From Rhodobiaceae bacterium (GTDB taxonomy: Bacteria > Pseudomonadota > Alphaproteobacteria > RS24), in assembly GCA_018673175.1 (NCBI GenBank), contig JABHDF010000003.1, positions 1 through 39,640 on the forward strand: DNA of 39,640 nucleotides, read 5' to 3'. Position numbers and translations under genes: made by a program. Below the pieces are notes generated by a model. That model was not told where the DNA came from. It ran no database searches and saw only the letters and a program-made list of their open reading frames with translations. Positions 31,358 through 31,432 of this stretch are shown piece after piece. Position 1 is the stretch's first letter; each line of letters starts with the position of its first letter.

Positions 31358-31366
31358 TGTGGATAA
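31358..31366 (-). promoter_or_regulatory. perfect DnaA box upstream of ccrM
   Basis: TGTGGATAA on the plus strand is TTATCCACA on the minus strand, the consensus DnaA box, about 73 bases upstream of the ccrM start. A one-mismatch version occurs inside coxA (TTATCCACC), but this is the only perfect one I found. DnaA would be a plausible regulator of a replication-linked gene. Confidence 0.6.
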
Positions 31367-31389
31367 AGTGAAATTTAATTAACGCCTTG

Positions 31390-31432
31390 GAATCTTTGGC
31401 CTATTGACGCCGGACTCGCGATGACTCATGGT
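31390..31432 (+). promoter_or_regulatory. ccrM control region with three GANTC sites
   Basis: GAATC (31390-31394), GACTC (31413-31417) and GACTC (31423-31427) fall within 38 bp. The last two are 10 bp apart as in the gcv promoter. A possible -35 TTGACG (31404-31409) with 17-bp spacing meets only a weak CATGGT (31427-31432), which would place the transcription start at or near the ATG at 31439. In Caulobacter ccrM is controlled through GANTC sites in its own leader; the sequence supports a similar loop here. Confidence 0.5.

Follow-up and report, generated by a model that had tools for sequence, protein, structure and literature searches.

A conserved DnaA box upstream of, and GANTC sites within, the predicted core promoter of ccrM in a family of marine Alphaproteobacteria

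In Caulobacter the ccrM gene carries GANTC sites in its leader, and GcrA targets typically carry GANTC in a -35/-10 spacer layout. A GANTC site between -10 and -35 has been described as the mark of a distinct class of Caulobacter cell-cycle promoters (Zhou et al. 2015, PMC4287350), and according to the same paper only 31% of the GcrA-enriched cell-cycle starts have GANTC within 50 bp, the mechanism being called unknown. Open-complex formation at methylated promoters is stimulated by GcrA (PMC7403470), and the Caulobacter promoters of podJ and mipZ need GcrA (PMC3667746). Gonzalez et al. (2014, PMC3973325) report that GANTC is depleted and consider that methylation of ccrM most probably influences the gene itself. 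The ccrM gene has further been predicted to be a core GcrA target across Alphaproteobacteria that was lost in Caulobacterales (Adhikari et al. 2021, PMC7987155), in an analysis that covered -200 to +100 relative to the start codon and scored motifs regardless of promoter position. As for DnaA, Brilli et al. (2010, PMC2877005) predicted its motif at ccrM chiefly in organisms whose ccrM has no CtrA sites.

Links from DnaA to ccrM and from GcrA to ccrM have each been predicted in print already, and it is their combination, together with the geometry described below, that looks new. We found no title or opening of an abstract on a conserved perfect DnaA box at ccrM or on its geometry, in a search that left most subscription journals outside its reach, and the word ccrM is absent from the main text of PMC8203912 and PMC3193534.

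The ccrM locus and its predicted core promoter

The stretch of DNA analysed here (the window, 39,640 bp) is contig C51 of a draft genome (G000; 1.84 Mb, 74 contigs, 89.9% complete), and its source organism is a streamlined marine alphaproteobacterium of the family of strain IMCC14465. The CcrM encoded in the window shares 97% identity with the CcrM of an "uncultured Rhodobiaceae" genome and 75% with the one in Alpha proteobacterium IMCC14465. The genes gcvT, gcvH, two parts of gcvP, rnhB and ccrM all have one orientation; the names of gcvT, rnhB and ccrM were checked with Pfam, and those of gcvH and the gcvP parts come from reading of the proteins. A second methylase-like stretch (L002, G000:C14:45115-45846) shows 29% identity to CcrM over residues 14-264. 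The features of the ccrM upstream region are collected in Table 1.

Table 1. Features at the ccrM locus (positions within the window)
Feature	Position	Strand	Remarks
rnhB, co-directional gene upstream of ccrM	30703..31329	+	Pfam RNase_HII
Near-palindrome CACTACATGTAGCG	31330..31343	.	pattern CACTANATNTNGTG, one mismatch; exact at C6:4133, the RNR promoter of G000
Degenerate DnaA-box-like 9-mer (TGTGGGCAG on + strand), 12 bp upstream of perfect box	31346..31354	-	3 mismatches
Perfect DnaA box TTATCCACA, centre about -77 from predicted transcription start	31358..31366	-	perfect in 22/24 family genomes
GANTC (GAATC), about -49 from predicted start	31390..31394	+	kept as TTGGAATC in aligned g1, g3 and g5 genomes
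-35 element TTGACG	31404..31409	+	within TTGAC-N14-GANTCANNNT in 23/24 family genomes
GANTC (GACTC), in predicted -35/-10 spacer	31413..31417	+	
GANTC (GACTC), final C is first base of predicted -10; 19 bp after start of -35	31423..31427	+	
Predicted -10 element CATGGT (CAnnnT across the class)	31427..31432	+	A/T conservation in class sample
ccrM, GANTC adenine methyltransferase	31439..32557 from favoured ATG; longest ORF from 31421	+	Pfam N6_N4_Mtase and RAMA

The family is represented by 28 genomes, 26 of which have a CcrM-like match; 24 promoters were counted, leaving out G019 (a fragment without its 5' end) and G005 (46% identical and not taken as an orthologue). Second or paralogous pieces (L108, L109, L110 and L111) were dropped, L108 remaining inside a 25-locus count of the core promoter. 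Loci L003-L017 and L020 are apparently of the same species as loci carrying G handles, and the family counts rest on G handles only. For the wider comparison we used a class sample of 134 genomes drawn evenly across Alphaproteobacteria and at least 90% complete (the window's own genome apart). A CcrM match was found in 96 of them, three being family members; 93 regions were taken, and the omission of L251 (38 bases) left 92 ccrM upstream regions.

Comparison within the family reveals one retained block upstream of ccrM, TATTGACGCCGGACTCGCGATGACTCATKGT, with few changes. We read TTGACG and CATGGT, separated by a 17-bp spacer, as a putative sigma70 promoter with the GACTC sites between or on its elements; the -10 of this TTGACG-N17-CATGGT core is weak. 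The spacing TTGAC-N14-GANTC is present in 37 of the 92 class regions, against a mean of 0.05 and a maximum of 1 in dinucleotide shuffles, and the spectrum of TTGAC-GANTC spacings in the class sample shows a sharp peak at 19 (37 genomes) and a broader peak at 8-10 for the first site. By a tally of family labels, the 37 regions span 34 families of Alphaproteobacteria. All 37 have A at +24 and T at +28 counted from TTGAC, i.e. at the base directly after GANTC and four bases further on, neither of which is part of the search pattern; both bases occur at 19 of 52 other TTGAC sites and at 24 of 271 other GANTC sites in the same regions. We interpret A24 and T28 as the predicted -11A and -7T of a -10 element CAnnnT. 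A second reading of A24 is that it may be part of the GcrA motif.

The family genomes with the full TTGAC-N14-GANTCANNNT pattern (Table 1) correspond to 24 of 25 loci, one genome being represented twice through L108, and the sole exception is G011, in which the second GANTC of the ccrM promoter has been lost. Outside the family the full core is present in 30 of 64 named loci and lacking in 55 of the 92 class regions. Genome-wide scans found the pattern once each in G000, G026, G025, G004 and G016 and twice in G006, with ccrM among the matches in all six genomes; the backwards control gave two matches in all, one in G000 and one in G004. The equivalent of the GANTC at 31390 is absent from the aligned genomes of genus g6. 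The bottom strand of the 31423 site reads TGAGTCA, which fits the YGAKTC of the published motif YGAKTCK and departs from it at the final K (PMC7987155).

A sequence-only reading of the window had pointed out three GANTC sites in 38 bp before ccrM and the apparent scarcity of this motif elsewhere, and both observations were borne out by counting. The sites lie exactly where it had put them, and the window contains 24 GANTC in total against a shuffled mean of 113. A 400-kb sample of the sister genome G026 has 219, where about 1555 are expected from base composition (approximately seven-fold depletion), and GANTC is the rarest among the 16 xyNy'x' palindromes in this sample. The Poisson expectation for GANTC triples within 38 bp is 0.004 in the window and 0.16 per genome. 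An ordinary density of GANTC was ruled out as the explanation of the ccrM cluster by the window shuffles and the G026 counts. The G026 sample holds four triples within 38 bp, namely those at ccrM and gcrA and two others (L178:7034 and L178:18376, contig C2), a number not to be taken as a rate, since the sampled stretches were picked to include ccrM and gcrA.

The position of the -10 element implies a transcription start at about 31439, which is itself an in-frame ATG. We favour this ATG, leaderless at the predicted transcription start, over the ATG at 31421 as the start of ccrM. With the start at 31439, the ATG at 31421 would be promoter DNA and all three GANTC would lie upstream of the coding sequence; the earlier statement that the sites precede the gene needs one correction, in that the 31423 site overlaps the first ATG of the longest ORF. 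Across 17 genomes, the first four codons of the longer ORF hardly change, even at third positions, and codons 5-6 and 8-14 are variable. In genus g6 the same DNA element is retained though out of frame with CcrM. The sites precede the predicted start and would fall outside the transcribed leader, and they appear to form a promoter rather than a leader. Shut-off of ccrM by methylation of leader sites, which the sequence-only reading had invoked from Caulobacter, is not supported by this arrangement, in which the GACTC sites lie instead in the predicted spacer or touch the -10. Read-through transcripts from the gcv operon could use the ATG at 31421.

At gcvT, in the region 25983-26250, a promoter with TTGACT at 25985 carries a GANTC-N5-GANTC pair at 25987 and 25997, and a tandem glycine riboswitch (26024-26152 and 26156-26247) is located directly 3' of it. 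This pair is one of only two in G000, the other being at ccrM; GANTC-N5-GANTC pairs are also found approximately 5.3-5.4 kb ahead of ccrM in G026, G020, G025 and G004. It is possible that glycine cleavage takes a methylation input, and likewise that transcription reads through from the gcvT promoter to ccrM. The gcvT pair was rejected as a second architecture of the ccrM type, its GANTC offsets from the -35 being different, and a second copy there is also excluded by the exact ccrM pattern occurring only once in G000.

DnaA boxes at ccrM, gcrA, uvrC and ribonucleotide reductase

The DnaA box reported by the sequence-only reading is confirmed in position, strand and sequence, and it is the sole exact copy in the window. 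It proved to be conserved in relatives, being perfect in 22 of 24 family promoters; the exceptions are G022, with one mismatch, and G001 (genus g2), in which it is absent. In genus g6 the sequence TGTGGACAA, with one mismatch, is found 11-12 bp upstream of the perfect box. A MAFFT alignment set the g5 box against the degenerate upstream copy, so that conservation was understated (1 of 9 columns at 95% or above), and box conservation was judged by distance from the -35 instead. The first base of the box lies 45 or 46 bp upstream of the -35 in 14 family genomes, 56 bp in seven (G022 included), and 34 bp and 32 bp in one genome each, i.e. among the 23 family promoters the distances fall into classes (32-34, 45-46 and 56 bp) that differ by steps of about one helical turn. 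This helical phasing suggests that a protein at the box acts on the ccrM promoter, probably as an activator.

The exact 9-mer occurs four times in the 1.84-Mb draft of G000, as often as its backwards control pattern, thus its placement is unusual and its number unremarkable. Chance placement of the ccrM box was ruled out by its conservation and by there being only four exact copies in G000. DnaA is encoded in all five genomes searched (Bac_DnaA_C match), and the DnaA of G000 and G026 contains the segment GGRDHTTVIHA, which we take to be the box-recognition signature of DnaA (DHTT segment).

The only four exact boxes in G000 are located upstream of ccrM, gcrA, uvrC and the gene for the large subunit of ribonucleotide reductase (RNR), the last approximately 420 bp from the start of the longest ORF. 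Taken over G000, G026, G020, G025 and G004, these four loci hold 20 of 25 exact boxes, the other five being sporadic. The identities of GcrA and UvrC of G000 and RNR of G026 were confirmed with Pfam, the RNR of G000 and the genes of the other genomes were recognised by like protein starts, and the gcrA locus of G020, cut by a contig end, was assigned from its neighbour gene. All 22 gcrA loci have a perfect box in the same orientation, 107-156 bp upstream of the ATG; a GANTC abuts it, with at most one base between, in 16 of them. G001, whose GcrA is a fragment without upstream DNA, is outside these 22 loci, and G006 carries the box at gcrA as well as at ccrM. GcrA itself is encoded in G000 at C6:34346-34810 (E 1e-51). 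The DnaA input at ccrM suggested by the sequence-only reading is well supported as a conserved sequence feature, by the conservation of the box and by the other exact boxes of G000 at gcrA, uvrC and RNR.

In other bacteria uvrB and RNR genes count among the known or proposed targets of DnaA (PMC8203912), which supports the identification of the TTATCCACA 9-mer as a DnaA box, and the set of ccrM, gcrA, uvrC and RNR can be regarded as a candidate minimal DnaA regulon. According to a coarse analysis of GC skew in 20 stretches of G026, the sign changes from negative to positive at 700-800 kb on C3 and back at 540-630 kb on C2. Both turns are away from all four box loci, thus the boxes do not seem to belong to the origin.

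The uvrC gene has an exact box upstream in 5/5 genomes (L117, L118, L122, L127 and L134), in the orientation opposite to that of the gcrA and ccrM boxes. In the RNR promoters (L115, L120, L124, L129 and L131; 5/5 genomes) an exact box is found approximately 150 bp upstream of a CACTATATNTNGTG palindrome, which begins 17 bp after a TTGACG -35. G020 has an extra exact box (contig C41, L121:2980-3110), 78 bp start-to-start from a GAGTC-N5-GAGTC pair.

The near-palindrome that precedes the degenerate 9-mer at ccrM belongs to a type, CACTANATNTNGTG, which we take to resemble the NrdR box. Five genomes (G000, G026, G025, G004 and G006) were searched with at most one mismatch: before ccrM it is present in G000 only, and at gcrA in three of the five (G025, G004 and G006; not G000 or G026). 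The RNR promoters of 5/5 genomes carry the palindrome over the -10 position, and NrdR is encoded in G000 and G026. With one mismatch, G000 has 14 matches against 16 for the backwards control. An NrdR-like palindrome as the shared input of RNR, gcrA and ccrM is a lead only. Several gcrA promoters (e.g. L128, L132 and L139) possess one or two ACTA-AT-TAGT palindromes over the -10 in addition to the DnaA box, and that of G025 has two such palindromes, 31 bp apart, which suggests that gcrA, too, may be subject to a dNTP-responsive repressor of the NrdR type.

Candidate circuit and alternative explanations

From the observed sequence, its conservation and geometry, and the four-gene box set, we infer the binding of DnaA and GcrA, the transcription start, the sign of each effect and the timing. 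On balance, we consider it probable that the two halves of the GcrA-CcrM module are both direct targets of DnaA and that the ccrM promoter combines DnaA with GcrA/methyl-GANTC inputs. The GANTC in the spacer and the GANTC abutting the -10 would place GcrA so as to recruit and open RNA polymerase once CcrM has methylated them, and GcrA on methylated GANTC would close a positive loop from CcrM to ccrM. The upstream box is centred at about -77 and keeps to roughly the same face of the helix, and DnaA bound there would probably activate ccrM. Being active around initiation, DnaA would start the transcription of gcrA and ccrM without methylation, after which GcrA and methylated GANTC would sustain that of ccrM.

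An alternative that we consider unlikely is that DnaA represses ccrM, so that CcrM would stay low as long as DnaA is active at initiation and increase afterwards. Repression by DnaA has a precedent in nrdAB of E. coli (PMC8203912), and in 16 of 64 named non-family loci, 14 of which are from Qipengyuania or Erythrobacter (loci include L030, L035, L046 and L076), the box is found at +28 from TTGAC with its first T as the last base of the -10, where DnaA should block the polymerase. At one locus of the class sample the box likewise begins at the final -10 base, and two more loci have it within or across the spacer. In all 23 family promoters with a box, however, it is located upstream of the -35 at phased distances and never over the core, and it has the same orientation at gcrA, an activated DnaA target in Caulobacter (PMC3193534).

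In the class sample an exact box lies within 300 bp upstream of ccrM in 7 of 92 regions (shuffle mean 0.18, maximum 2), at varied positions: over the -10, in or across the spacer, directly next to the -35, or else downstream or far upstream. Four Croceicoccus loci (L021, L022, L025 and L036) carry TTTTCCACA in the other orientation, four bases beyond the position of the box in the Qipengyuania and Erythrobacter promoters, and no box was found in the 165 bp upstream of ccrM at the Parvibaculum MAG locus L041. Since the exact box is present in only 7, and the full core is missing in 55, of the 92 class regions, the ccrM core promoter and the DnaA box are both lineage-limited. We hypothesize that the DnaA-ccrM link may have been gained repeatedly, its positions suggesting opposite effects. 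Tentatively, and as a possibility that falls short of a probable conclusion, DnaA may have replaced CtrA as the direct driver of ccrM and may drive gcrA too, so that the initiation of replication would switch on both halves of the GcrA-CcrM module at once, with GcrA and GANTC at the -10 serving as a methylation-dependent latch; the link would then have arisen repeatedly with opposite sign, the box activating from an upstream position in the family studied here and repressing from its place over the -10 in Erythrobacter-like Sphingomonadales.

The GANTC sites could instead be constrained for reasons other than GcrA, e.g. by direct methylation-sensitive contacts of sigma70 alone at the -10, the last C of the site belonging to this element so that methyl groups could affect the polymerase directly. 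We judge this distinctly improbable: 23 of the 28 family genomes have a gcrA match (of the other five, four fall below 90% completeness, and in G020 a contig ends at the locus), and the prediction of ccrM as a core GcrA target extends across Alphaproteobacteria (PMC7987155).

Control of the Caulobacter type, with late activation of ccrM by CtrA and shut-off through methylation of nearby GANTC sites, is very unlikely in this family. A CtrA-like regulator is encoded in G000 and G026 (300 bits, below the 350-bit Rhodobacterales cut-off), and a CtrA-like site with one mismatch is present at 31364-31378, where it overlaps the perfect DnaA box; however, the full site TTAA-N7-TTAA is absent from all 24 family ccrM promoters within 300 bp, for which reason CtrA control via a full site was rejected, and the GANTC sites are located in the core promoter, upstream of the predicted start. 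The layout of the ccrM promoter seems to suit GcrA/CcrM control better than CtrA control. Finally, that the box, lying just beyond rnhB with a weaker box-like copy 12 bp upstream, is a chromosomal titration or nucleotide-exchange site or an ancestral residue with no role in ccrM transcription is highly improbable, as there is no cluster of strong boxes of the datA or DARS type (one perfect and one three-mismatch copy), the distance from the -35 is phased even where the intervening length has changed, and the other exact boxes of G000 also precede genes of DNA metabolism and the cell cycle.

If the favoured reading of direct DnaA action on gcrA and ccrM is true, replication initiation, rather than CtrA, would time genome-wide adenine methylation in a free-living streamlined bacterium, and a circuit that needs its own product (methylated promoter DNA) would be restartable via a methylation-independent start by DnaA. 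The conserved ccrM switch looks readable both by DnaA and by the methyl marks of CcrM, and methylation may in this way be linked to the start of replication. The fixed geometry of the ccrM promoter, which recurs in 34 sampled families, offers a precise and mutable target for studying how GcrA reads methylated GANTC.

Comparison with described systems

With the CtrA-activated ccrM promoter of Caulobacter the locus shares the gene and the presence of GANTC nearby; it differs in that the family promoters have no full CtrA site within 300 bp and in that GANTC is found in the predicted core instead of the leader. The resemblance to the sigma70 promoters of the Caulobacter GcrA/CcrM system is closer. 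These promoters likewise have GANTC between the -35 and the -10, e.g. at -24 in podJ P2 (PMC4287350), and both gcrA and ccrM are encoded, as in that system. In contrast to them, the family geometry is fixed as TTGAC-N14-GANTCANNNT and, in the six genomes scanned, nearly unique to ccrM, and the passages of PMC7987155 drawn on here contain no fixed promoter geometry at ccrM.

The gcrA promoter of Caulobacter, at which DnaA activates gcrA (PMC3193534), has its counterpart in the DnaA box conserved at gcrA in the 22 family loci; unlike in Caulobacter, the family has the same box at ccrM too, and the gcrA box is in most loci (16 of 22) abutted by GANTC. A DnaA motif at ccrM without full CtrA sites, as seen in the family, agrees with the earlier prediction (PMC2877005), which was made with a matrix of possibly low specificity, according to its authors, and named a cluster of Magnetospirillum and Rhodospirillum. 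Compared with that prediction, the box of the family described here is perfect, conserved across genera and tied to the geometry of the promoter.
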